Part shown: piece by piece, positions 1 to 11,498 of the stretch
Position numbering within the stretch: the stretch's first letter is position 1
How the letters are laid out: every line of letters starts with the position of its first letter
Source: Aneurinibacillus soli
Lineage (GTDB): Bacteria > Bacillota > Bacilli > Aneurinibacillales > Aneurinibacillaceae
Direction: 5' to 3'
Assembly (NCBI RefSeq): GCF_002355375.1
Contig: NZ_AP017312.1
Span: 1,753,001-1,817,000 of the forward strand
DNA length: 64,000 bases
The notes under the pieces: generated by a model
Database searches by the model: none
Seen by the model: only the letters and a program-made list of their open reading frames with translations
What the model was told of the DNA's origin: nothing
Position numbers and translations under genes: made by a program

Positions 1-330
1 GCGGGTGATTCCATCAATCATATTCGATGGGTAGGCGAGACAACGCAAGATGTCTCTTACCCAGCTTATTCCCGTTCCGGTGTGACAGGGGGGTGGAGCA
101 TTGGCAATGCGTTGCATGTCAAAGTGTTTGCCAAAACCCCTGGAACCTATCTTTTGAAGCATGGGATTTACGGAGAGAACGGGAAGACGATTATAGAGTA
201 TCGGGCTGATGGATTAGTCAATTATATTTGGCGCTGGCTTCCTGCTGCGGATAAAACATGGAAGATTGTCGAGAAGATGACGCCTGTCTATGACATAAAC
301 GGCGTAGCAACAGATTGGGGGATAGCATAA
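1..330 (+). CDS. Phage structural or tail-associated protein, 3' part
   Basis: The frame is open from base 1 and ends at a TAA at 328-330, so the gene begins upstream of the window; 109 residues are visible. The sequence shows no motif I recognise. It reads like a beta-rich phage domain, with aromatic residues and short alternating strands (for example ADGLVNYIWRWLP). Its stop overlaps the start of the next gene by one base (TAATG), which indicates translational coupling in a late phage operon. Tail, tail-fibre or baseplate role is inferred only from position ahead of a glycine-rich tail-like protein and the lysis genes. Confidence 0.6.
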   Translation, partial: AGDSINHIRWVGETTQDVSYPAYSRSGVTGGWSIGNALHVKVFAKTPGTYLLKHGIYGENGKTIIEYRADGLVNYIWRWLPAADKTWKIVEKMTPVYDINGVATDWGIA

Positions 331-1277
331 TGTTCGGCATGATGGAAGGAGTCTATGCGTTCCTGACCCGAATGGTAGGGAACAGGATGGAAACAGGGGA
401 TCCAGATGGAAGTTTACATGCGAAGATCAGGGCAGGTCAGGGGATCGTATTTCCTTTCTTGAAACGATTCGGAGATGGGGCAGATGGCGATCTGACCGTA
501 GCTGCAAACACGACTTTAACGAGTGGATTGTATCGGTATAATAATCTGACGGTAAATGCAGGTAAAACTCTCACATGTACGAGAGGAAAGAATACAGGCG
601 TTTTGGTTTTGCTAGTAAAAGGAACATTGACCGTAAATGGATTGATAACGGTGAGCGGGCTAGGAGCACCAGGTGGAATGTATGGGAATGATCCAGGCGG
701 AACTGGTGCGAACGGAAGCCCCGGACAAAACGGATTTATAGGTGGCAGTGGGGGCGCAGGTGGGGGCTCTTATGTCTATGGAATAAAAGGAGGAGGGGAT
801 GGAGGAAACACAGGCGTCCTCGGAGGGATCGGTGTTTCCCAAGGTCCTTCTACTTCTGGCACAACAGATAATCTAATCGCTAAGTTACTAGGAAATATGG
901 ATGCTGGAGGCGGAGCAGGCGGTGGAGGCGGCGCTGCGTATGGTAGAACGAGAGGAGGGATGGGTGGCGCAGGAGGCGGTGTCATTATCATCGAAGCGAG
1001 GAATATCATCATTAACTCTGGTGGAGCGATCAGGGCCGATGGAGTGAATGGGGAAAATGGTAGCTATGATAGCTCAACAACCGACTCACGAAGCGGAGGC
1101 GGTGGAGGAGGCGGTGGAGGTTGCATTGTTTTGCTTTCACTAAACACAACAAATAACGGGATTGTTTCCGCAGCAGGTGGGATCGGTGGTTCGTATGGAA
1201 AGATTCCTTCCGGAAACGTTATTCCTTATAATGGAGCAGGCGGCGGGAATGGAGTAATCGCACAGGTGGTGTTATAG
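330..1277 (+). CDS. Glycine-rich phage tail or receptor-binding protein
   Basis: A 315-residue protein from the ATG at 330, whose A is also the last base of the previous stop; GGGGGAT at 316-322 is the ribosome-binding site. A frame extension to a TTG at 315 is less likely. Residues 40-105 are beta-rich, resembling a right-handed parallel repeat (TTLTSGLYRYNNLTVNAGKT). From about residue 110 onward glycine becomes extreme, with runs such as GAGGGGG and GGGGGGGGG, interspersed with short hydrophobic strands (GVIIIEARNIIINSGG). Glycine-rich sheets of this type occur in phage tail-tip adhesins and in surface proteins. A receptor-binding role is inferred from composition and position. Confidence 0.6.
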   Translation: MFGMMEGVYAFLTRMVGNRMETGDPDGSLHAKIRAGQGIVFPFLKRFGDGADGDLTVAANTTLTSGLYRYNNLTVNAGKTLTCTRGKNTGVLVLLVKGTLTVNGLITVSGLGAPGGMYGNDPGGTGANGSPGQNGFIGGSGGAGGGSYVYGIKGGGDGGNTGVLGGIGVSQGPSTSGTTDNLIAKLLGNMDAGGGAGGGGGAAYGRTRGGMGGAGGGVIIIEARNIIINSGGAIRADGVNGENGSYDSSTTDSRSGGGGGGGGGCIVLLSLNTTNNGIVSAAGGIGGSYGKIPSGNVIPYNGAGGGNGVIAQVVL

Positions 1278-1526
1278 ATGGCACGTATTGAACAACAGGG
1301 AAACGAATTATGGATGATTGAAGAGGAAGGCGAATGGTTATATGGAATGGTGGAGGAGAAGCAAGAAGAAACATCTGTAGATCAACAACAGGAAGCGCTG
1401 GATGCCATTATGTCTGGTCTGATGGATACGAGCGTCCAAAGTGCAGATGCGAATGAAGCAATCATGAGTGCACTCATTGATATTCAAGCACAAATTGACG
1501 AAATAAAAAATGGAGGTGGCGTCTGA
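1278..1526 (+). CDS. Small acidic phage protein of unknown function
   Basis: 82 residues, beginning directly after the previous stop codon (TAG at 1275-1277, ATG at 1278). The protein is strongly acidic and glutamine-rich, with a predicted coiled-coil or helical C-terminal half (DANEAIMSALIDIQAQIDEI). Small helical proteins in this place, between a tail-fibre gene and the holin, are common in Gram-positive phages and are often tail-fibre accessory or chaperone-like proteins. No family is recognised. The stop TGA shares one base with the ATG of the next gene. Confidence 0.55.
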   Translation: MARIEQQGNELWMIEEEGEWLYGMVEEKQEETSVDQQQEALDAIMSGLMDTSVQSADANEAIMSALIDIQAQIDEIKNGGGV

Positions 1527-1681
1527 TGGCTTCAATTTACGCTTATAAAATCAATTATTCCGGTATGACATGGGCAGAAGTTCCGGTGCGGTATAAGGCA
1601 GACACCGAGCGAATCTTGCGCGAGAAATATAGCTGGATAGATGAACAACTGAACACTTTGAAAGATTCAGTTGCAGCATAA
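1526..1681 (+). CDS. Short phage protein, 51 residues
   Basis: ATG at 1526 overlaps the preceding TGA by one base and follows GGAGGTGG at 1512-1519, a good ribosome-binding site. The product begins MASIYAYKINYSGMTWAEVP and ends with KDSVAA. It has a short beta-like N-terminus and a charged helix (RILREKYSWIDEQLNTLK). It is the last gene of the tail operon and is followed at once by a terminator. It resembles the very small XkdX-type proteins in position, but not in sequence. Function is unknown. Confidence 0.55.
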   Translation: MASIYAYKINYSGMTWAEVPVRYKADTERILREKYSWIDEQLNTLKDSVAA

Positions 1682-1683
1682 CA

Positions 1684-1718
1684 AACGGCTTTCTTATATG
1701 AGAAGGTCGTTTTTATTT
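1684..1718 (+). terminator. Terminator of the tail operon
   Basis: AACGGCTTTCTTA pairs with TGAGAAGGTCGTT around a short loop, using two G-U pairs, and is followed by TTTTATTTT. It lies three bases after the last tail-operon stop codon. Confidence 0.7.
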
Positions 1719-1758
1719 TGCCTAACCTACAAATTTAAGTTTTGTAAGATAAATAAAT

Positions 1759-1788
1759 CAAAAGTTGGCAGGAACTCATCCTGCCAAC
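1759..1788 (-). terminator. Terminator of the minus-strand gene at 1807-2043
   Basis: GTTGGCAGGA (1764-1773) and TCCTGCCAAC (1779-1788) form a perfect 10-bp stem with a 5-base loop. On the minus strand the stem is followed by TTTTG. It sits 19 bases past the stop of the minus-strand gene. Confidence 0.75.
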
Positions 1789-1806
1789 ACTGCTTCTGAC
1801 TGTAAG

Positions 1807-2043
1807 TTATTGTGGAAAAAAGCTTGGATTAGATTCAATCATAATAACTATCTCATCGGCTTTGTTTCTATTTTTTACAAGTTCATGTTTTAATGCCTTT
1901 CCTGAGTATTTTACTGCTTCACCAGCATACATCTTTGCTGCTCTTTTGTAACAACCTGGGTGTTCCTCTAGGAAAGCTTTCGTCGCTTCAGGAAACAAAA
2001 TTTCGCGTAGTTCTTCATTAGATATGTTGGCCAATATAATCAC
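1807..2043 (-). CDS. Small cytoplasmic prophage protein, unknown function
   Basis: 78 residues from a GTG at 2043, or 75 residues from a TTG at 2034. The TTG is the better placed, since GGTGAT ends four bases before it on the minus strand. The protein looks all-helical and charged (EELREILFPEATKAFLEEHP, then ALKHELVKNRNKADEIVIMI). No family is recognised. It is transcribed against the surrounding phage genes, has its own terminator, and has a 6-bp inverted repeat (ATTATC at 2061-2066, GATAAT at 2075-2080) in its upstream region. This arrangement, a lone reversed gene between tail and lysis modules, is typical of a phage cargo gene expressed in the lysogen. Confidence 0.55.
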   Translation of the reverse strand: MIILANISNEELREILFPEATKAFLEEHPGCYKRAAKMYAGEAVKYSGKALKHELVKNRNKADEIVIMIESNPSFFPQ

Positions 2044-2115
2044 CCTTTGTATTTTTTCTTATTATCACCAAGAAGATAATTTTTATTAAATCGATATTTA
2101 TTAGTGTTTTCGAGC

Positions 2116-2134
2116 GCCTAATTAGGCTTTTTTT
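2116..2134 (+). terminator. Terminator upstream of the lysis genes
   Basis: GCCTAATTAGGC is a perfect palindrome followed by seven T. It lies 30 bases before the holin start on the same strand, so transcription into the lysis genes must read through it or start after it. It may serve as a control point for late lysis expression. Confidence 0.6.
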
Positions 2135-2164
2135 GCCCAGAAGGGCGGTGAGGAGGATGTAGGA

Positions 2165-2347
2165 ATGGAAGAATGGTTGTTTAAAATTGCTAAGGAATAC
2201 GGGTTGTTCGTGGCATTGGTTGTCTATGTATTGTGGGACAGCAGACAGCGAGAGACAAGGCTCATCGGTATTATTGATAAGCTATCTGATAGCTTTCAGG
2301 AAATTAAAAACGACATTGAATTGATCAAAGATAAATTATGGGGGTAA
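2165..2347 (+). CDS. BhlA/UviB-family holin-like peptide
   Basis: 60 residues. A short N-terminus (MEEWLFKIAKEYG) leads into one membrane segment at about residues 14-26 (LFVALVVYVLW), followed by DSRQRETR and a charged coiled-coil tail. This is the layout of the BhlA/UviB bacteriocin or holin family of Bacillales phages and plasmids. The ATG follows GGAGGATGTAGGA at 2152-2164. The endolysin gene begins four bases after its stop, making a classical holin-endolysin pair. In this family the peptide is thought to permeabilise the membrane so that the amidase reaches the wall. Holin activity is inferred from family and context. Confidence 0.85.
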   Translation: MEEWLFKIAKEYGLFVALVVYVLWDSRQRETRLIGIIDKLSDSFQEIKNDIELIKDKLWG

Positions 2348-2351
2348 TCGT

Positions 2352-3104
2352 ATGAGCAAAATCGTAGTAATCGGCGCAGGTCATGGACTTCCAGATCCGG
2401 GTGCTTGCGGAATCGTGCAGGAATACAAAGTAGTGCTGCAATTGGCACAGCTGGTTGAGGAGGTGCTAAAGCGGCATGGCGTTAAAACAGTCATGCTTCG
2501 TACAGGGGAACGCTCCCTATCGGGTGCAGCGGACTTAAAACAAAATAAACGTGAGGACCTGGAACGCCGGGTAGCAATCAGCAACCAGTCGAGTGCAGAC
2601 TTCCACTTGGAGCTGCACATGAACGCTGGTGGCGGCACTGGCTATGAAACACTATGCTACAGCGAGAATGAGCAGATTCGTACCCTACACAATTCAGTCA
2701 TGCAGTACTTGCGTCCGTTCAATATCCGGGATCGGGGCATCAAGATTCGTACCGATGTGCGTGTGCTGCAAGTAAAAGTGAAAGTAGCGCTGCTGGAATG
2801 TCTGTTCGTTGATCACCCGAGCGATGCGGCATATATGAAAGACTCGGCATTCCTGTCTGGATTGTCCGAAGCAATCGGACGCGGCGTATTGGCGGCAATC
2901 GGCGTAGCGTATGTCCCAGCAAAGCAACCGACAACAACTACTCAGAAGGAGGAACCGAAGATGAAACAAGCAGACGCGGAGAAAGTGATTGCATATTTAC
3001 AGGCGGCGTGGAAGGAAGCCAAGAATGCAGATGAGCAGAAGGAGATCGGTCGTCTGGCTGATGAGGTACGTGTAGTAGCTGGTATGAGAAAGGTAAATGG
3101 ATAG
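2352..3104 (+). CDS. Endolysin, N-acetylmuramoyl-L-alanine amidase (Amidase_3)
   Basis: 250 residues. The catalytic domain (about 1-185) is an Amidase_3 zinc amidase that cleaves the bond between N-acetylmuramate and L-alanine in peptidoglycan. The expected zinc ligands and catalytic acid are visible: His11 in GAGHG, Glu24 in QEYK, His89 in ELHMNAG and Glu149 in LLECLFVDH. There is no signal peptide, as expected for a holin-dependent enzyme. A Pro/Thr-rich linker (about 190-203) leads to a small helical C-terminal region (204-250), probably for wall binding or oligomerisation. The ATG at 2352 follows GGGGGT of the holin's end. An exact Shine-Dalgarno sequence inside the linker suggests a second, shorter product. 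Confidence 0.92.
   Translation: MSKIVVIGAGHGLPDPGACGIVQEYKVVLQLAQLVEEVLKRHGVKTVMLRTGERSLSGAADLKQNKREDLERRVAISNQSSADFHLELHMNAGGGTGYETLCYSENEQIRTLHNSVMQYLRPFNIRDRGIKIRTDVRVLQVKVKVALLECLFVDHPSDAAYMKDSAFLSGLSEAIGRGVLAAIGVAYVPAKQPTTTTQKEEPKMKQADAEKVIAYLQAAWKEAKNADEQKEIGRLADEVRVVAGMRKVNG
2946..2963 (+). promoter_or_regulatory. Internal ribosome-binding site and start within the endolysin gene
   Basis: AAGGAGGA (2946-2953) is followed after 7 bases by an in-frame ATG at 2961, codon 204 of the endolysin. This is the strongest Shine-Dalgarno match in the neighbourhood. The product would be the 47-residue C-terminal region alone (MKQADAEKVIAYLQ...). Some Gram-positive phage endolysins are known to make a separate wall-binding subunit in this way; for this gene it is inferred from sequence. 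Confidence 0.6.
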
Positions 3105-3217
3105 ACTCCGTAATTAAGCATGGCATGACGTGCTAAAAGTAACATGAGATCCGGGGCTGGATATGTTCAGTTATACGCCAATTGGTGCTGGTGTGGTATT
3201 TAGCTATAGGAAAAGGT

Positions 3218-3247
3218 AAAACCCACCGACCTAGGTTAGTGGGTTTT
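3218..3247. terminator. Bidirectional terminator between endolysin and cyclase genes
   Basis: AAAACCCAC (3218-3226) and GTGGGTTTT (3239-3247) form a stem with runs of A and T at the two outer ends. It can therefore terminate the rightward lysis transcript and the leftward Pycsar-like transcript, whose last stop codon is at 3252. The 147 bases between the two genes hold nothing else that I can support. Confidence 0.8.
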
Positions 3248-3251
3248 ATGA

Positions 3252-3980
3252 TTAGTTCACTTTCTTAATATACCATTCTGGTTCATCTAGGCTTCTCTGT
3301 AAACCTTGGGAGGTAGGAAGTTTATCATATGTATTTTTAGATACCCATATTTCATTATGTCCGTGGGATTTCTTTGCTGCCATATTTACACAGTCGCCAA
3401 GTGCTTTTGTATCAAACGTTCCATCTGTTCCTGTTTTAGTAACAACAACAGGACCGCTATCGATACCAACACCAAACACAACTGAAGGGATATTGTCAGA
3501 TAATAGAATAGGATTTACAACCCTGCTTATAGAGCTGAGCAACTCTTCTCCGCAACAAACAGCTAGCTCTTTAGTATTTAAGTCCTTTTTACTTTCTGAC
3601 CATTGAATAGACTTCCTATTCTCGCCTTCTTTAAATAGTGCCATAATACCATCTCCAGGCAGATCGATAACATACCCACCATATTTTTCAACAATATATA
3701 TTAGTGCAGGCATGACAGCATGAAGGGTTAAAAAGTTATCCTCTGGCCTTAAGTCCTTTGCTCGTTTACTCGAGCCGCGCATATCGGCAAAAAAAGCGAC
3801 AAATTCATCTTTATGGTATGCTCCAAATTTCATTTTTTCAGCTTCATATCCGGGGATACGATCTGAAACTGCAGCACCATATTTTTCTAGTAAGAGTTTG
3901 TTAGTATTTAAAGTTTGCTTAGCTTGTCCATATTTTTCTAATATTACTCTTTTAAGTTCGTCTTCTTTAATTATCGCCAT
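3252..3980 (-). CDS. Class III nucleotidyl cyclase, Pycsar PycC-like
   Basis: 242 residues from the ATG at 3980, chosen because GGGAGTTGAG lies 5-15 bases upstream; an upstream start at 4037 would overlap the effector gene and has no such site. After a helical N-terminus (1-55), a class III cyclase fold runs to the end. The metal-binding aspartates are Asp66 in FFADMRGSS and Asp110 in PGDGIMALF. The transition-state Asn is Asn199 in DCVNMAAKK. The usual Arg four residues later is Lys203, and the purine-selecting Lys position before GDG is Asp106, so base choice is unlikely to be adenine or guanine. It lies 25 bases downstream of a PycTM-like gene. Together they fit a pyrimidine cyclase making cCMP or cUMP on phage infection. 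Substrate is inferred. Confidence 0.8.
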   Translation of the reverse strand: MAIIKEDELKRVILEKYGQAKQTLNTNKLLLEKYGAAVSDRIPGYEAEKMKFGAYHKDEFVAFFADMRGSSKRAKDLRPEDNFLTLHAVMPALIYIVEKYGGYVIDLPGDGIMALFKEGENRKSIQWSESKKDLNTKELAVCCGEELLSSISRVVNPILLSDNIPSVVFGVGIDSGPVVVTKTGTDGTFDTKALGDCVNMAAKKSHGHNEIWVSKNTYDKLPTSQGLQRSLDEPEWYIKKVN

Positions 3981-4005
3981 TAATCTCAACTCCCTGTTTG
4001 TATTT

Positions 4006-4671
4006 TTATGTAAAAAGATTTTGGATAACAACGACAAAAGTAACTGCTATGAGAATCAGAGTTCCGTATCCTAAAAACTTTATTGACCATTTAACCCGTT
4101 GAATTTTCATTTCACGTATATAAGAAACTTTTTGTAACTCATACACTAATATGTGTTGTATTTTTGCAACAGTAAGATGATCTAACTCATTTAAAAGATA
4201 GCTTGTTGGCGAGGTCAATTTAAAAGTACCTTCTTCATCATTAAAAATATTTGATTCTTCGATCGATGGTTCTAACTCATTTAAATAAAATAAGTTTGGA
4301 ATTGATTTGGGAGTATCTTTTTTTATGCTTTTAATCGGACCACTTTTTGGGGAGATAACTAGAAGCGCAAGCCTAATAGCACGTATTATGAAATATATTC
4401 CTAATAAGCTCATTGATATATATGCAAGGGAAGCAAGAACTTCAAATCCACTAGTAGATTCTTTGTATAGTAGCCCTTTTATGAATGTATAAAAGTCTTT
4501 AGAAAATCCTGAAAAGAAGGTTATAACAATACCGGTAAGAACCAAGATTGCTCCGGCTTTAGTATCTGTAAAGCGAATGGTATTTTGATTATCTTCGATC
4601 GCTTTATAAAGCAACTCTATTTTCTTGTCCTCGACTTTTTCATCTTGGGGATTGTTAGTGTCATTTATCAC
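4006..4671 (-). CDS. Pycsar effector, DUF5706/PycTM-like membrane protein
   Basis: 221 residues from a GTG at 4671 preceded by GAGGAGG on the minus strand. The N-terminal helix carries NQNTIRFTDTKAGAI (residues 28-42), matching the N..I...D.KA signature of DUF5706 effectors. Hydrophobic segments lie at about 40-57, 77-106 and 196-219, with a soluble region of about 90 residues between the second and third. In characterised Pycsar systems such proteins sense cCMP or cUMP and damage the inner membrane, stopping phage growth by abortive infection. Here the effector precedes the cyclase in a two-gene minus-strand operon; the order effector then cyclase should be compared with known loci. The region is much more AT-rich than the host genes. 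Confidence 0.8.
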   Translation of the reverse strand: MINDTNNPQDEKVEDKKIELLYKAIEDNQNTIRFTDTKAGAILVLTGIVITFFSGFSKDFYTFIKGLLYKESTSGFEVLASLAYISMSLLGIYFIIRAIRLALLVISPKSGPIKSIKKDTPKSIPNLFYLNELEPSIEESNIFNDEEGTFKLTSPTSYLLNELDHLTVAKIQHILVYELQKVSYIREMKIQRVKWSIKFLGYGTLILIAVTFVVVIQNLFT

Positions 4672-4721
4672 TTTCTGCCCTCCTCATAATTTTTAGCTAT
4701 ATCGTACCTAATTTCTAAATA

Positions 4722-4751
4722 ATTATAAGGTATTTCGATCCCTCTATGCAA
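4722..4751 (-). promoter_or_regulatory. Promoter of the effector-cyclase operon
   Basis: On the minus strand, TTGCAT (4751-4746) and TATAAT (4727-4722) are 18 bases apart. Transcription would start near 4715, about 45 bases before the GTG at 4671. This is a sigma-A-type match. Confidence 0.6.
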
Positions 4752-4758
4752 AAAAATG

Positions 4759-4786
4759 TTGGAAATCTATTCTAAAAAATTATAAT
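4759..4786 (+). promoter_or_regulatory. Promoter of the second cyclase gene
   Basis: TTGGAA (4759-4764) and TATAAT (4781-4786) are 16 bases apart. Transcription would start near 4793, giving a leader of about 22 bases that holds AAGGGGGGGA at 4801-4810 before the ATG at 4815. The -35 boxes of this and the opposing promoter are only 7 bases apart, so one bound regulator could control both. Confidence 0.65.
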
Positions 4787-4814
4787 AATTATAGAGCTAC
4801 AAGGGGGGGATTGT

Positions 4815-5948
4815 ATGAAAGAAGTCGGTAATTCTCAGGTAGAAGAAGTGGATAGTACTCAGATAGAAGAGGTGGATAGTACTCAGGTAGGGGAAGTAGA
4901 GATTGTTCATGTTGATTATGTTTTTTTGGATATTGTAGATTATACGAAAGATCGAAGTGTTGAAGCTCAGGCTGATATAATAAGTAGTTTAAACAACATT
5001 GTCAAAAAAGCTGTGTCTGAGATTGTAAAAGAAGCTCCAAAAGATGATAGAATGCCAGCTAATGTTATTTATTCTCCTTCTGGTGATGGCATGTGTATAG
5101 GATTGATTAATAGAAATTTTAAATATGATGCCGCTATGATATTAGCGTTAAATATATTAAAGGAGATTGAGTTGCATAATGGAGAGGTCATGGATCCGGA
5201 ATTAAATTTTAGGGTTCGTATTGGTATAAATTCTAATAGGGACAATTTAATCGAAGACATAAATGATAATTTGAACTTAGCTGGTTCAGGAATAAATACG
5301 GCACAGAGAATAATGGATTTGGCAGATGCTGATCAAATTTTAATTGGTCAATCTGTATATGATATATATTCTAAACGCAGACAATATAGGCACTCTTTTA
5401 GAGACTATACAGCTAAAATTAAACATGGTGATACATTATCAGTTTATCAGTATGTTAATCATGTAATAGATTATCTCAATACAGATGAGCCTCTGTTTAT
5501 TCATAAACCACCGGTGGAGATAGAAGAAAGCCTAGACAAAAGAACTGCGTACTATATGGCGCAGGCTATTAAAAATAAAGAGTTTCTTCTTAGCAAAGTA
5601 GAGGAAAATGCATCGTCTTACATATGTATGGTTATTCTTTGGTTTTTGGCCATTGACTCTGAAGGTAAAGATAACTCTACGCCTATGAAGCCGTACAAAC
5701 TTCGAACACCTGAATTTGAAAATGGCGGAATTGCAGGTACCTATAAGTACATTAAATCTGTTGAGTATTGGATTTATTGTGAATTTAGTGAACTAATTCT
5801 TTACAATCTCGAAAAATTCCGTGAGTATTTTCATAAAGGAATTCCGTTTGCTGATTTTCGTTTCGTTAATTCTAGAGGGGAGAAGGAACTTAAAAAAGAA
5901 TACCCTGATATTTGGGAACAGTTTGAACTTGATAAATTTGTTAATTGA
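4815..5948 (+). CDS. Second class III nucleotidyl cyclase with unknown C-terminal domain
   Basis: 377 residues. Residues 4-27 are three 8-residue repeats. A cyclase homology domain follows (about 33-215): Asp39 in FLDIVDYT and Asp91 in SPSGDGM are the metal ligands, and Asn161 and Arg165 (GINTAQR) are the canonical transition-state pair. The purine-selecting Lys position is Ser87, so the base is open. Residues 235-377 are a helical domain I do not recognise, with a hydrophobic stretch at 268-281 (SYICMVILWFLAI) too short to call a membrane span with confidence. The gene diverges from the effector-cyclase pair and is AT-rich like it. It may be a second signal-making arm, a fused cyclase-effector, or a regulator of the pair. 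It is not a duplicate of the other cyclase. Confidence 0.7.
   Translation: MKEVGNSQVEEVDSTQIEEVDSTQVGEVEIVHVDYVFLDIVDYTKDRSVEAQADIISSLNNIVKKAVSEIVKEAPKDDRMPANVIYSPSGDGMCIGLINRNFKYDAAMILALNILKEIELHNGEVMDPELNFRVRIGINSNRDNLIEDINDNLNLAGSGINTAQRIMDLADADQILIGQSVYDIYSKRRQYRHSFRDYTAKIKHGDTLSVYQYVNHVIDYLNTDEPLFIHKPPVEIEESLDKRTAYYMAQAIKNKEFLLSKVEENASSYICMVILWFLAIDSEGKDNSTPMKPYKLRTPEFENGGIAGTYKYIKSVEYWIYCEFSELILYNLEKFREYFHKGIPFADFRFVNSRGEKELKKEYPDIWEQFELDKFVN
4824..4895 (+). repeat. Three tandem 24-base coding repeats
   Basis: Units at 4824-4847, 4848-4871 and 4872-4895 encode VGNSQVEE, VDSTQIEE and VDSTQVGE. The last two share GTGGATAGTACTCAG exactly. The repeat can vary in number by slippage without changing frame and sits before the cyclase domain. 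Confidence 0.85.
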
Positions 5949-6033
5949 CTAAAAGATCTATCTAAATAAGGGCTCTGCATTATTTTTTGTTGAAATTCTT
6001 ACTATACTATAGAAGTGTCAGGAAATAAGACAA

Positions 6034-6066
6034 CCCCACTGCCCGTTTGGGTGGAGGGGATTTTTT
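6034..6066 (+). terminator. Terminator after the second cyclase gene
   Basis: CCCCACTGCCC pairs imperfectly with GGGTGGAGGGG around GTTT, followed by six T. It ends the cyclase transcript about 90 bases after the stop codon. Confidence 0.7.
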
Positions 6067-6124
6067 CCTTAGCACGACTATAAGATTAAATTTATCTGTA
6101 TAGCTTTTTTAATCTTCATAAAAC

Positions 6125-6304
6125 TCATTTGACGTCGTAACTGACGTATAAGTAAAACAATAGGGCACAGATAGTAATGCCGATGATACCTAAACATCCT
6201 ATGAAAAATTTTCCTGCTGGATGCATTTTTAGTTTTGCACCACAATGCGGGCAAGTTATAGCGCTTTTTGCTACTTCTTTCTTACATACTTTACATGGAA
6301 CCAT
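6125..6304 (-). CDS. Zinc-ribbon single-pass membrane peptide
   Basis: 59 residues from the ATG at 6304, which has AGGAG eight bases upstream on the minus strand; a GTG three codons earlier overlaps that site and is rejected. The N-terminus is a zinc ribbon with two CxxC pairs (CKVC and CPHC, 14 residues apart). One membrane segment follows (about 32-54, FFIGCLGIIGITICALLFYL). Such minimal zinc-ribbon and membrane proteins are frequent small cargo genes in Firmicutes phages. Function is unknown. It converges on the second cyclase and is transcribed with no partner. Confidence 0.7.
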   Translation of the reverse strand: MVPCKVCKKEVAKSAITCPHCGAKLKMHPAGKFFIGCLGIIGITICALLFYLYVSYDVK

Positions 6305-6456
6305 GCGATTCACTCCTATTTATCTATGTTTATATTTTAAGTATAATTCTGTAAAAAATTTAAAAGTCCTTTTTATTTCTCGTTTGTTAGAATAAATGTA
6401 TTTTATTCCCTTTTCATCCTGTTACTTGTATAATAGGGCAAAGGGGGATGATGTAG

Positions 6457-6621
6457 ATGGAATATCGGTTGAAGGTTGATGAACACGGTCGAGTCCCAAT
6501 CCCGGAAGAAATTCGTGAGCAACTTGGATACGGCGCACTTACGTTCCAGGCGATAGAGAATCTGATTGTCATCTCTAAGAATAAACCCGAAAAAGAATTT
6601 ATATGGACACCACAGAAATAA
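6457..6621 (+). CDS. AbrB/SpoVT-like swapped-hairpin DNA-binding protein
   Basis: 54 residues. MEYRLKVDEHGRVPIPEEIR followed by EQLG is the classic AbrB/MazE/SpoVT strand-turn-helix pattern, in which two chains form the DNA-binding unit. The ATG at 6457 follows AAGGGGGATG; a good -10 box TATAAT at 6429-6434 lies upstream, with a weak -35. A strong terminator follows directly, so it is a single-gene unit. It has no adjacent toxin gene on its strand, so it is more likely a prophage regulator than the antitoxin of a pair. A role in controlling the cyclase genes is only a guess from proximity. Confidence 0.75.
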   Translation: MEYRLKVDEHGRVPIPEEIREQLGYGALTFQAIENLIVISKNKPEKEFIWTPQK

Positions 6622-6625
6622 GAAG

Positions 6626-6654
6626 AGCCCGGCGCTGACCGGGCTTTTTGTTTT
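6626..6654 (+). terminator. Terminator of the AbrB-like gene
   Basis: AGCCCGG (6626-6632) and CCGGGCT (6639-6645) form a 7-bp GC-rich stem with a 6-base loop, followed by TTTTTGTTTT. It begins five bases after the stop codon. Confidence 0.85.
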
Positions 6655-6717
6655 ATAGGACAGTGTTTAATTTTTTTCTTCCTTATAATACAGTTTATTG
6701 TTCAACTATTTGACTGT

Positions 6718-7185
6718 CTAGTCTGACAATTGCGTTCTGATGAATTCGTCAACAGCTAATTTATTTTCTGGAGAAGGAATAGCTTCATCACGTTCCCAAC
6801 TACAGACCGATCTATGACTCGCTGAAAGTATTTGCGCTAACTCTGATGAGATCAACCCAGCATAAAGCTTTGCTTTTCGCAAACGCTGACCTAACGTATC
6901 TTCAGGTAGGTTTTCAAAGCAGCCTAGATACCAGATCGGTATATCGAGTGCTTCAGATAATTTTTTCAGGGTTTTAATTTTGGGAGTGTAAACACCCCTT
7001 TCGATCATAGAAATCATTTCCTTAGTCAATTTGGCTTGTTTAGCTAACTCAACAATGAACAAATTTCTATCCATCCTGCTTTTTCTAATTCTTCCGCCAG
7101 GTGTGTTCAGAAAATCAGTCTGCTTCGCTACCGGGAGTGATCGCTGTTTCGTTATACTGTTATCCAAACTGTTATCTGCACGCAT
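6718..7185 (-). CDS. XRE-family regulator with two helix-turn-helix domains
   Basis: 155 residues from the ATG at 7185; the frame is open to 7233. Two XRE-type HTH domains are visible: about 36-90 (GGRIRKSRM, then TKEMISMIERGVYTPKIKTL) and 100-150 (GQRLRKAKL, then SELAQILSASHRSVCSWERD). The start is uncertain: no candidate start has a good ribosome-binding site, and the domain proper begins near residue 36. The 5' end lies on the attachment-site junction, so the native promoter and first codons may differ between the integrated and the circular phage. It is the last phage gene and may be a lysogeny regulator or a control of excision. Confidence 0.7.
   Translation of the reverse strand: MRADNSLDNSITKQRSLPVAKQTDFLNTPGGRIRKSRMDRNLFIVELAKQAKLTKEMISMIERGVYTPKIKTLKKLSEALDIPIWYLGCFENLPEDTLGQRLRKAKLYAGLISSELAQILSASHRSVCSWERDEAIPSPENKLAVDEFIRTQLSD
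7156..7176. repeat. Direct repeats next to the attachment site
   Basis: ACTGTTATC occurs at 7156-7164 and 7168-7176, spaced by 12 bases centre to centre and about 10 bases from the start of yifB homology. Such spacing and position fit integrase arm-type or regulator-binding sites. They also encode the repeated residues DNS in the XRE frame. Confidence 0.5.
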
Positions 7186-7202
7186 GCAACTGCGGCTATT
7201 AT
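7183..7202. other. Probable attR, prophage junction in yifB
   Basis: YifB-like coding sequence begins at the conserved Cys-x-Cys-Gly-Tyr-Tyr motif (codons from 7185), whereas the preceding bases have no YifB similarity. The crossover is therefore in or just before TGCAACTGCGGCTATTAT. The matching attL is outside the window, so the core length cannot be read. Confidence 0.6.
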
Positions 7203-7667
7203 CAATTTGAAGATCAGACAAATGTTTGTACATGTACAGAACTTGAAGTCAGGCGGTATCGGCGTAAGTTGTCCGGTCCGTTGCTTGACCGGATGGACAT
7301 GCATGTAGAAGTGCCGAGGGTGGAAGCAGAAGAACTAGATCGTCTGTCGGTATCTTCTTTGGACATGCGCAGACGTGTCGAAGAGGCGCGTGCTCGTCAG
7401 AGTGAGCGTTATGAAAAAACGAACTATAAGTATAACGCGGATTTGTCCGGCGCGGTTCTGCGTACACATGTGCAGCTTTCCAGAGAGGGGGAGCGCTTTT
7501 TATCTGCCATTTATCGAACGACTGGGCTAAGTAATCGTTCCTATGATAAAATTCTCAAGATATCGCGCTCGATAGCTGATCTGGATGGATGTGAAGAAAT
7601 ACATGAAGAACACATAGCGGAAGCTCTTCAGTATCGGGTGCTTGATCGAGCTGATTGGAAACGATAA
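7185..7667 (+). pseudogene. yifB: C-terminal fragment of YifB/ComM-like ATPase, cut by the prophage
   Basis: About 160 residues of a protein that is normally near 500. Visible are the paired-cysteine segment CNCGYYQ...CTC, the conserved RYRRKLSGPLLDRMDMHVEVP region of the Mg-chelatase-like AAA+ family, and the C-terminal helical domain ending in RVLDRADWKR. The family includes ComM, a helicase that helps branch migration during natural transformation. The ATP-binding Walker motifs and start must lie left of the prophage, outside the window. No start codon with a ribosome-binding site exists for the remnant, so it is presumably silent in the lysogen. Excision would rebuild the gene. Confidence 0.85.
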
Positions 7668-7703
7668 ATCGACAGCCGAAAAATTTTTTTCGACATGATT
7701 CGC

Positions 7704-8187: not shown

Positions 8188-9348
8188 ATGAATATCCATG
8201 AGTATCAAGGCAAAGAGATACTTAAACAGTACGGTGTCGTTGTACCGAATGGCCAAGTAGCTTTCACCGTAGAAGAAGCAGTTGAAGCAGCTAAAACATT
8301 AACTTCCAGCGTGTATGTAGTAAAAGCACAAATTCACGCAGGTGGCCGTGGTAAAGCGGGCGGCGTTAAAATTGCCAAAAATCTGGACGAAGTTCAGACA
8401 TATGCCAAGGAAATTCTCGGAAAAGTGCTGGTGACACACCAGACTGGCCCAGAAGGCAAAGAAGTAAAGCGCTTACTTATCGAAGAAGGCTGCGATATTC
8501 AGAAAGAATACTACGTAGGGGTAGTTGTTGATCGCAATACGAACCGTGTAGTACTCATGGCTTCTGAAGAAGGTGGTACAGAAATCGAAGAAGTAGCAGA
8601 AAAAACGCCAGAAAAAATCTTTAAAGAAGTTGTTGACCCTGCGGTAGGTCTGCAAGTATTCCAGGCACGTAAACTGGCACTCGCTATTAACATTCCAAAA
8701 AATCTTGTAAATAAAGCAGTGAAATTTATGATGGCGCTTTATCAAGCATTCGTTGATAAAGATTGCTCAATCGCAGAAATCAATCCGCTCGTTGTAACAG
8801 GCGACGGTAATGTTATGGCACTTGATGCGAAACTGAACTTTGATTCTAATGCCCTGTACCGTCACCCGGATGTACAGGAACTGCGTGACCTTGATGAAGA
8901 GGATGCGAAAGAAATCGAAGCATCTAAATACGATCTGAACTACATCGCGCTCGATGGTAACATCGGTTGCATGGTTAACGGTGCAGGTCTTGCAATGGCG
9001 ACAATGGACATCATCAAGCATTACGGTGGCGACCCGGCGAACTTCCTCGATGTTGGCGGCGGCGCGACAACTGAGAAAGTAACAGCTGCATTCAAGCTCA
9101 TCCTGTCTGATGAGAATGTAAAAGGTATCTTCGTTAACATCTTTGGTGGCATCATGCGATGTGACGTTATCGCGGAAGGTGTTGTCGAAGCGGCGAAACA
9201 GGTGAGTCTTGACCGTCCGCTCGTTGTTCGTCTTGAAGGGACAAACGTTGAGCTTGGCAAGAAGATTCTGAATGAATCTGGTCTTGCTATCGAGGCGGCG
9301 GAGTCCATGGCAGACGGCGCAGAAAAAATCGTTAAACTTGTGCAATAA
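8188..9348 (+). CDS. sucC: Succinyl-CoA synthetase (ADP-forming) beta subunit
   Basis: 386 residues, the usual length. The enzyme interconverts succinyl-CoA and succinate with ATP formation in the TCA cycle, as a complex with SucD. The ATP-grasp N-terminal half begins [17 protein letters not shown] and carries the glycine-rich loop [11 protein letters not shown] (about 52-62). The C-terminal CoA-ligase half holds FLDVGGGA and the [10 protein letters not shown] motif. The ATG follows GGTTAGGAGG. It is the first gene of a two-gene operon ended by the terminator after sucD. Confidence 0.97.
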
Positions 9349-9375: not shown

Positions 9376-10284
9376 ATGAGTATTCTCATTAATAAAGATA
9401 CAAAAGTCATCACTCAGGGTATTACTGGGGCGACAGGTTTGTTCCATGCGAAAGGCTGCCGTGATTATTACGGAACACAAATGGTCGGTGGTACTACACC
9501 TGGTAAAGGTGGTACAGAGGTTGAAGGATTCCCTGTATTCGATACGGTTCAAGAAGCGGTAAAAGAAACAGGTGCAAATGCTTCTGTTATTTATGTTGCT
9601 CCAGCGTTCGCAGCGGATGCAATCATGGAAGCGGTTGACGCAGAACTCGAACTTGTTGTATGTATCACAGAAGGTATTCCGGTACTCGACATGGTAAAAG
9701 TTAAGCGTTTTATGGAAGGCAGCAAAACCCGTCTCATCGGACCGAACTGCCCGGGTCTTATTACACCAGGCGAATGCAAAATTGGTATCATGCCTGGCTA
9801 TATTACTGCACCAGGTAAAGTTGGTATCGTATCCCGCTCTGGAACGCTTACATATGAAGCGGTTCACCAGCTTACAACAAATGGTATCGGCCAGTCCACT
9901 GCGGTTGGTATCGGTGGCGACCCGGTTAACGGCACAGACTTCATCGATTGTCTCCGTCTGTTTAATGAAGATCCAGATACAGAAGCGGTTATCATGATCG
10001 GTGAGATCGGTGGTACAGCGGAAGAAGAAGCGGCTGAATGGGTAAAAGCAAACATGAAGAAGCCGGTAGTAGGATTCATTGGCGGTCAGACTGCTCCTCC
10101 AGGAAAACGTATGGGACATGCTGGCGCGATCATCTCTGGCGGTAAAGGTACAGCAGCCGAGAAGATCAAGACAATGGAAGCATGCGGCATTCCAGTAGCG
10201 AAAACTCCGTCTGTAATGGGTGACACGATGATTGAAGCGCTCAGACAGCATAATCTGCTTGAAATTTGCAAAACGATTAAATAA
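9376..10284 (+). CDS. sucD: Succinyl-CoA synthetase alpha subunit
   Basis: 302 residues. An N-terminal CoA-binding Rossmann domain begins [21 protein letters not shown]. The phosphorylated active-site histidine is His248 in [11 protein letters not shown]. The GPNCPGLI and SRSGTLTYE motifs of the family are present. It starts 27 bases after sucC, with AAAGGTAGGG upstream. Both subunits are needed for the TCA-cycle reaction. Nothing unusual is seen. Confidence 0.97.
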
Positions 10285-10333: not shown

Positions 10334-10397
10334 TTGAGGAAGGATTTCCAATTATTACCTAGAAAAAGATAAAGAGACCTAATAGGGAGGAATGGAA

Positions 10398-11498
10398 ATG
10401 GAAAACTTGACAGAAATGATGCTTGCATTATCAATGATTCCAGGAGTAGGCAGAATGGTTATGCGTCGTGCCCGCCAATTGGCTGAACCTATTGATTTTA
10501 CATCTTGTACAGCACTGGATATTCAGCACATGCTCGGTGTGCGAGAGAATATAGCAGAACAGATCCGTCGGAAGTATGATCTTGCGGCAGCTCGGAAAAA
10601 CAGGGAAGAATGGGAACGTAGAGGGATTACCGTGCTTGTTTATGGAGATGAAAAATATAGCGAGTGGCTGTACGAGATCCCGGACGCACCTGAGCTGTTA
10701 TATGCAGACGGAAATTTCGATTTACTTACGCGTCCTGCCTTTTCGATTGTAGGGACGCGGACACCGACGCAATATGGTCGGCAGCTAGCGCGTCAGTTCG
10801 GCAGGGAGCTCGCAGAAAGGGGGCTGGTTGTTGTATCGGGTATGGCTCGCGGTATCGATGCAGAAGCGCATACAGGAGCACTTGAAGCTCGTGGCGGTAC
10901 GATTGCTGTCCTTGGCTGTGGAATCGACTGGTTGTATCCCGCAGAAAACCGGCAATTAGGTGCGAGGATTCGAAAGCAAGGCCTTCTGCTGTCTGAGTAT
11001 CCTCCCGGAACACGGCCACAGCGTGGCTTTTTCCCCGAACGCAATCGGATTATAAGTGGGCTTGCACACGGCATCCTTGTGATTGAAGCCGCATCTCGCA
11101 GTGGGTCTCTTATTACGGCTGATCTCGCAACCGAACAGGGACGTGATGTATTTGCTGTTCCGGGGTCCATTCATTCACCAAAAAGCGCCGGTTGCCACTG
11201 GCTTATTCAGCAGGGCGCTAAATTGGTTCAGCACGTTCATGATATTGTGTTTGAATATCCTGAGCTTGCATTGGATACACATGTAGGAAATGCAGAAGTT
11301 GCCGGTGCGCCCGAATCACTCAGTAGCGAAGAAGCGGCGCTCTTGCGCATGATTCCGTGGGAGTCAGTGTCGTATGAACAGATTTTATGTCGAACGGAGT
11401 TTTCTCCTTCCTATTTACACTTTCTTCTGTTATCTTTGCAGATGAAGAAACAGATCATGCAACTGCCTGGACAGGCGTATATTCGGGTAAAGCCATAG
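10398..11498 (+). CDS. dprA: DNA-processing protein DprA (RecA loader in transformation)
   Basis: 366 residues from the ATG at 10398; GGGAGG at 10385-10390 is too close to the ATG at 10392. DprA binds incoming single-stranded DNA and loads RecA during natural transformation. A helical N-terminal region (about 1-75) precedes the extended Rossmann domain: FSIVGTRTPTQYG, SGMARGIDAEAHTGALE, LGCGIDWLYPAEN and ERNRIISGLAHGILVIEAA. The C-terminal 65 residues form the winged-helix-like domain. The host thus keeps a transformation gene close to the yifB/comM-like gene disrupted by the prophage. Confidence 0.96.
   Translation: MENLTEMMLALSMIPGVGRMVMRRARQLAEPIDFTSCTALDIQHMLGVRENIAEQIRRKYDLAAARKNREEWERRGITVLVYGDEKYSEWLYEIPDAPELLYADGNFDLLTRPAFSIVGTRTPTQYGRQLARQFGRELAERGLVVVSGMARGIDAEAHTGALEARGGTIAVLGCGIDWLYPAENRQLGARIRKQGLLLSEYPPGTRPQRGFFPERNRIISGLAHGILVIEAASRSGSLITADLATEQGRDVFAVPGSIHSPKSAGCHWLIQQGAKLVQHVHDIVFEYPELALDTHVGNAEVAGAPESLSSEEAALLRMIPWESVSYEQILCRTEFSPSYLHFLLLSLQMKKQIMQLPGQAYIRVKP

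Follow-up and report, generated by a model that had tools for sequence, protein, structure and literature searches.

The window analysed here is a 64,000-nt stretch of the Aneurinibacillus soli genome (G000:C1:1753001–1817000; the genome is a single contig of 4.1 Mb). Its left edge holds the right-hand part of a prophage that lies inside yifB and measures 43,330 bp, the distance between the two crossover points. The yifB 5′ part stands at the left end of the prophage and the 3′ part at the right end, with phage genes between them (Table 1), as the original prediction had proposed. That prediction also described a yifB tail of 160 codons after the phage, a break in the Cys-x-Cys-Gly region and a nearby dprA, all of which are borne out: the crossover falls on the first Cys codon of the NP-C-x-C-G motif, and dprA starts 2.7 kb past yifB. 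The N-terminal yifB part and attL, which it placed to the left of the window, were located there beside a gene for a large serine integrase (a large serine recombinase, LSR). Phage matches were found in 8 of the 10 prophage proteins scanned (i.e. large terminase, Clp-type protease, capsid, HK97-gp10-like, tail tube, tape measure, HNH and Sak), and an amidase is also encoded. The prophage further carries a Pycsar-type anti-phage pair ∼2.5 kb from attR and, divergent from it, a second cyclase-like protein that has no PADLOC match at E ≤ 0.01.

Table 1. Features of the prophage and its surroundings in A. soli (window positions, or contig positions where marked C1).
Feature	Position	Strand	Remarks
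yifB 5′ part	C1:1715769–1716856		ChlI 1.4e-42, Mg_chelatase 1e-63
Large serine integrase (LSR) gene	C1:1716847–1718445	-	Runs through attL
Separate repressor-like gene	C1:1722324–1722698		Counterpart in phage Harrison: Harrison_45
Prophage, right-hand part	window 1–7184	.	Remainder C1:1716857–1753000, left of the window
Pycsar-type pair	window 3252–4671	-	PADLOC: PycC 8.6e-20, PycTM 2.4e-12
Second cyclase-like protein	window 4815–5948	+	Guanylate_cyc 3.7e-05
HTH 3′ piece of the split gene (tandem XRE/HTH tail)	window 6718–7185	-	HTH_3 7e-13
attR region	window 7160–7210	.	∼25 bp either side of the core, extent approximate
attR crossover dinucleotide TG	window 7185–7186	+	First Cys codon of yifB NP-C-x-C-G; attL counterpart C1:1716855–1716856
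yifB 3′ part	window 7185–7667	+	160 codons and stop; Mg_chelatase_C 9e-30
sucC	window 8188–9348	+	Conserved right flank of yifB; named by eye from sequence
sucD	window 9376–10284	+	Conserved right flank of yifB; named by eye from sequence
dprA	window 10392–11498	+	Ordinary syntenic neighbour

When the two flanks are joined, they give a single yifB ORF of 522 aa, which reads NPCNCGYYQFEDQTN across the site; the matching stretch of the intact yifB in a genome of the same genus (G006) is NPCNCGHYQFEDQTN. G006 represents the empty site, where the two yifB parts abut exactly (identities of 86% and 87%), and 112 of 138 bases are identical across the restored site. The neighbours of yifB in G006 are the same as here, with rnhB and yraN on one side and sucC, sucD, dprA and topA on the other. 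A second, intact yifB copy, which would have spoken against the original prediction, was not found: the only match in the genome to Mg_chelatase_C (PF13335, E ≤ 0.001) is the 3′ part, and ChlI matches strongly only in the 5′ part. Three further ChlI matches elsewhere (E 4e-11 to 7e-10) are taken for putative Lon/RadA-type proteins.

The core was assigned to TG because the restored 522-aa YifB then reads as in G006. A shared GG had initially been placed as the core, and was replaced by TG after inspection of the NPCNCG of G006 and of both ends of other prophages. The left arm of attR derives from attP, whose inverted repeat doubles as coding sequence for a linker described below, and the right arm derives from attB in yifB.

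The attP site sits within the phage's own integrase gene. In the lysogen, the integrase has 532 aa, the last two codons and the stop being supplied by yifB antisense DNA, and all three predicted LSR domains remain (Resolvase, Recombinase and zinc beta ribbon by Pfam, 1.2e-32, 6.3e-16 and 4.6e-15). Ser10, which we take to be the catalytic serine, is invariant in 17 aligned integrase relatives. Three LSR domains, a 2-bp core and an inverted-repeat attP together are what is expected of a large serine recombinase. In the circular phage, the integrase frame stays open through attP and continues into the HTH piece at the opposite prophage end to form one ORF of 685 aa (hereafter int-HTH). This HTH piece matches PHROGs phage transcription regulators, and a profile built from seven such pieces matches SinR, P22 C2 and 434-type repressors in the PDB. 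The prophage also has the separate repressor-like gene listed in Table 1, which would be the immunity repressor.

We then collected relatives of the integrase from phage records, IMG/VR, 100 related genomes and GTDB species genomes. Besides the window's own genome, 6 of the 100 related genomes have an integrase match at E ≤ 1e-60. The GTDB species genomes yielded 50 integrase loci, of which 31 adjoin a yifB half (22 the 5′ half and 9 the 3′ half); among the remaining 19 are incomplete genes, loci at contig ends, integrases that are more distant, and L123, which is described below. The HTH was sought in 36 integrase-bearing genomes and matched at E ≤ 1e-10 in 28, the weakest match (G135, 2.5e-11) being perhaps an unrelated HTH. 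Prophage ends were examined as 31 pairs, 26 from the HTH-matched set and 5 from the genomes of other relatives; G123 and G135 were never paired (partial or weak HTH), and one of two HTH loci beside yifB was used for G132. Four pairs (G111, G112, G124 and G128) lacked a yifB half on one side and were dropped, leaving 27 pairs, or 26 distinct prophages once G080 was removed as a copy of the G104 prophage.

The joined ORF of integrase and HTH is in frame and open in 26 of the 27 pairs and in 25 of the 26 distinct prophages. The exception is G127 (P. alvei), whose ORF stops prematurely at residue 452, still inside the integrase, with the HTH in a different frame; the HTH match of G047 is only partial. 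Between the core and the HTH domain, the integrase frame is open in 25/26 prophages and the other two frames in 4/26 and 2/26. The in-frame excess has P ∼2e-11 at an expectation of 1/3, and the count is the same under the first-placed GG core. A TG/CA core occurs at both ends in all 27 pairs and at the same Cys codon (TG on the yifB strand), a count helped by the fact that the core position was sought among small in-frame offsets favouring TG/CA; the offset chosen for G105 looks wrong by 9 nt. On average over 24 pairs, 15.75 of the 24 positions of the inferred attP are symmetric, whereas shuffled arms give 6.1 (G080, G105 and G127 were left out of the att consensus).

Several loci in this survey have a different layout. 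Both yifB halves lie together near an integrase relative at L123. In a Veillonellaceae MAG (L099), the lysogen's integrase ORF, which extends to 6130, reads on in frame into the yifB 3′ part, giving a fusion of 709 aa. L176 (G009:C67) has a full yifB followed by ∼8 kb with, by eye, tyrosine recombinase-like and lysis-like genes. Beyond these come an HTH piece and an additional 3′ fragment of yifB; the 140 residues listed for this fragment are those of the full copy's C terminus, apart from the start residue. The locus may be a duplication, a remnant or an assembly of mixed states. Contig 115 of G132 (L140, L154) and contig 18 of G134 each contain at least two fragments that represent the same yifB half, perhaps from elements stacked at the site. 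In Pelosinus fermentans (L098/L149) and P. propionicus (L085/L148), HTH relatives lie ∼2.3 kb from a full-length yifB and the integrase relatives have early stops, so these loci are possibly relics. Outside the Bacillota, a 37% identical integrase relative adjoins the yifB 5′ half on a Desulfobacterota contig (L112).

The uncut gene is present in phages and in contigs with no yifB next to the integrase. In the Paenibacillus larvae phages Harrison and Paisley, int-HTH of the same integrase family is one annotated CDS of 2088 nt, labelled in the records only as integrase or serine recombinase. In Harrison it starts one base past an HTH gene that is taken for the CI repressor, so the two would be made together. 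The IMG/VR contigs L017 and L019, whose integrase DNA is identical (1644/1644 bases), match Harrison over 1588 nt and then continue at attP into a yifB 3′ part, read in another frame as CPCGYLSAEHETQGCTCTP. This stretch matches the yifB of Paenibacillus L096 and L104 (E ∼1e-8 and 6e-8), and the host of L017 and L019 is taken to be P. larvae, the host of Harrison. Uncut genes of 686–701 aa with no yifB beside them are found in L035, L191, L192, L193, L194 and L207 (L191–L194 being closely alike), and L217, from a more distant clade, has an uncut ORF of 670 aa. The integrases of that clade (L217, L212 and L213) are 39–40% identical and carry a C-terminal HTH in the same ORF after another linker; the L212 and L213 ORFs run off their contigs. 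The viral scan recovered one locus with a three-row HTH profile and ten with a seven-row profile.

The HTH tail is not universal among these integrases. No HTH match at E ≤ 1e-10 was found in 8 of the 36 genomes with an integrase relative, some of which are drafts; in three of the eight, the yifB match is nearly full length, one with a stop. Among the 62 IMG/VR and phage loci scanned, where lysogen ends cannot show an HTH in the integrase ORF, 15 have such a match, which is only partial in L201, L202 and L205 and in the contig-end loci L196, L212 and L213. The integrase passes attP but stops ahead of the HTH domain in L197, L198, L201, L202, L203 and L205, and it ends before attP in L012. These observations indicate that (i) an attP within the integrase gene is more widespread than the HTH tail, which may be absent, and (ii) the tail is dispensable for an LSR.

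Expression and selection bear on whether the HTH piece belongs to the integrase. An in-frame ATG precedes the domain in 11 of the 27 HTH pieces, and ATG, GTG or TTG in 22; a start together with a Shine–Dalgarno match occurs in 2, and an own start is not conserved in the family. In the window's copy, an ATG coincides with the core, and the ORF of the lysogen begins at window 7233, in antisense yifB. In a simple scan of window 6600–7700, nothing promoter-like turned up ahead of the HTH piece; a single minus-strand match lies at its 3′ end, a count below the shuffled mean. The simplest reading of these data is that the HTH would be translated as part of the integrase. Its dN/dS values are 0.104/0.758, 0.211/1.386 and 0.371/1.807 (∼0.14, 0.15 and 0.21) in three of four pairs, dS being saturated in the fourth; for the integrase, the values are ∼0.05 and 0.06 in the two pairs with estimable dS. 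As judged from these substitution rates, the HTH is under purifying selection. In the AlphaFold model of the L035 fusion, the LSR part is good and the tail is poor (block pLDDT at most 56).

Prophage orientation is variable. The integrase points into the yifB 5′ half in 17 of the 26 distinct pairs, where the core is CA on the integrase strand, and into the 3′ half in the other 9, where it is TG. On the integrase tree (42 rows, 38 labelled), orientation changes at least five times on well-supported branches; outside the pairs, the labels were set by hand from the adjoining yifB halves or a visible attP. A labelling of the same tree by presence or absence of the HTH was set aside, as several rows marked 'none' had no HTH examination. 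Because CA and TG on the integrase strand track the opposite orientations, core polarity seems to set prophage orientation, and these prophages offer a natural experiment on core polarity.

Taken together, the split gene, the restored frame and the uncut phage ORF are evident from the sequences themselves, and we favour the following proposal, to which we assign a probability of about 0.72: the element is a temperate tailed phage with an LSR whose attP lies inside int-HTH, so that integration severs the gene. Before integration, one ORF encodes the LSR, followed by a linker that stems from the inverted repeat of attP and by two HTH domains of the XRE type. The LSR would integrate the phage at the NP-C-x-C-G codons of yifB, and, as the sequences show, a single crossover cuts both yifB and int-HTH. 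The integrase of the lysogen keeps its LSR domains and the HTH piece is stranded at the far prophage end without a conserved start; excision would rejoin both genes. Int-HTH would probably be made as one protein and act as the integrating form, and the shortened Int, with a directionality factor, as the excising form. With less assurance, we suggest that the HTH tail might bind a phage operator or att-flanking DNA only before integration, so that its loss would signal integration.

A regulatory role of the tail is our first choice, at slightly less than even odds, and a role in recombination comes second. In the latter case, the tail would help in finding or pairing attP or in directionality, and the tail-less Int of the lysogen would be inactive unless a directionality factor is present. 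Its location on the integrase itself, from which it is removed by the very reaction that would be controlled, fits this role, but relatives without a tail exist and, to our knowledge, LSRs in general lack such an HTH tail; we regard it as possible but rather unlikely. The absence of the tail from several lineages could also mean that it is a passive, dispensable hitch-hiker. We consider this unlikely, given that dN/dS ranges from 0.14 to 0.21 for three pairs and that six other HTH pieces have 31–43% identity to the window's copy.

The benefit might instead lie with the host. Reversible loss of YifB would then be advantageous, with excision timed to competence or sporulation. Bacillus subtilis is naturally transformable, and comK of Listeria is a competence-related gene that phage A118, through a serine integrase, interrupts and restores in active lysogeny. 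The present prophage resembles comK/A118 in having a serine integrase and an interrupted, restorable, competence-related gene, but the gene is different, and regulated excision is known there, whereas here we have restorability in sequence alone. The original prediction, which had put forward this gene switch, stands to the extent that lysogeny interrupts the only yifB copy found and that precise excision would restore it, as seen from the 522-aa ORF and the empty G006 site. A single copy, exact restorability and a recurring target are consistent with active lysogeny, as is the enrichment of competence genes among LSR targets in the part of Durrant et al. (PMC10083194) available to us. Against it, regulated excision has no support in the present sequences, both prophage orientations occur, and the target may have been chosen merely for its conserved codons. 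Moreover, a Mg_chelatase_C (PF13335) match occurs in 8 of 14 control genomes, but B. subtilis does not belong to these eight. The proximity of dprA is synteny, shared by the phage-free G006, and the presence of ComEC is no proof of competence, the control matching in E. coli as well. A competence link in the group of this host is therefore weak, and active lysogeny at yifB appears improbable.

Very improbable is an independent HTH gene that shares its frame with int across attP by chance, since the ATG at the core, the lysogen ORF from window 7233 and the in-frame start codons of 22/27 pieces stand against an in-frame arrangement in 25/26 prophages, where the two alternative frames are mostly closed, a start with Shine–Dalgarno in 2/27, and a single CDS in phage genomes.

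Insertion of LSRs into yifB-type genes is already known; the new part is attP within a serine integrase gene. In the accessible text of Durrant et al. 2022 (PMC10083194), LSRs that target the same kind of gene, magnesium chelatase/ATP-dependent protease genes, make up 12.4% of the predicted site-specific integrases, and we found there no mention of an attP in the integrase or of an HTH tail. Nor was the int-HTH arrangement mentioned in the accessible portions of three P. larvae phage papers (PMC6070908, PMC11860570 and PMC9341999), the last of which lists a YifB-family protein among prophage proteins. Literature searches, for which sources were partly accessible and subscription journals little covered, returned no serine integrase described as having attP within the gene that encodes it.

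Two known systems are comparable. As far as the available part of a review goes (PMC8371274), self-splitting integrases are exclusively archaeal. Like these SSV-type 'suicidal' integrases, the gene described here contains attP and is split on integration. The SSV-type enzymes are, however, archaeal tyrosine recombinases whose parts are called inactive, whereas the present ones are serine integrases of bacterial phages that keep the LSR domains and lose a regulator-like tail. In the integration-dependent immunity of mycobacteriophage BPs and its relatives (PMC4557955 and PMC8092301, as excerpted), attP likewise lies in a gene, and the C termini of the virus and prophage products differ. In those phages, the repressor gene contains attP, what is lost is a short end with a degradation tag, and the integrase is of the tyrosine type; here, attP is in the serine integrase gene int-HTH, not in that of the putative immunity repressor, and the tandem HTH is lost.

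LSRs are used as genome-engineering tools, and a main mining program for them compares genomes with and without integrants. For the yifB-specific family, integrases derived from lysogens are shortened and have a host-coded end, and the phage-encoded protein is ∼150 aa longer. We tentatively suggest, at somewhat below even odds, that the arrangement, which recurs in related phages of many bacteria, acts as a widespread integration sensor, in which one crossover would insert the phage, inactivate yifB, free Int of its regulatory tail and end the transcriptional activity of that tail. Such a sensor would amount to a lysis–lysogeny switch operating through the integrase, and the first bacterial as well as the first serine-family self-cutting integrase. 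Biologically, the finding extends to bacterial phages an archaeal principle, whereby the recombinase is altered by the recombination itself, and it points to a simple means by which a phage may sense its own integration.
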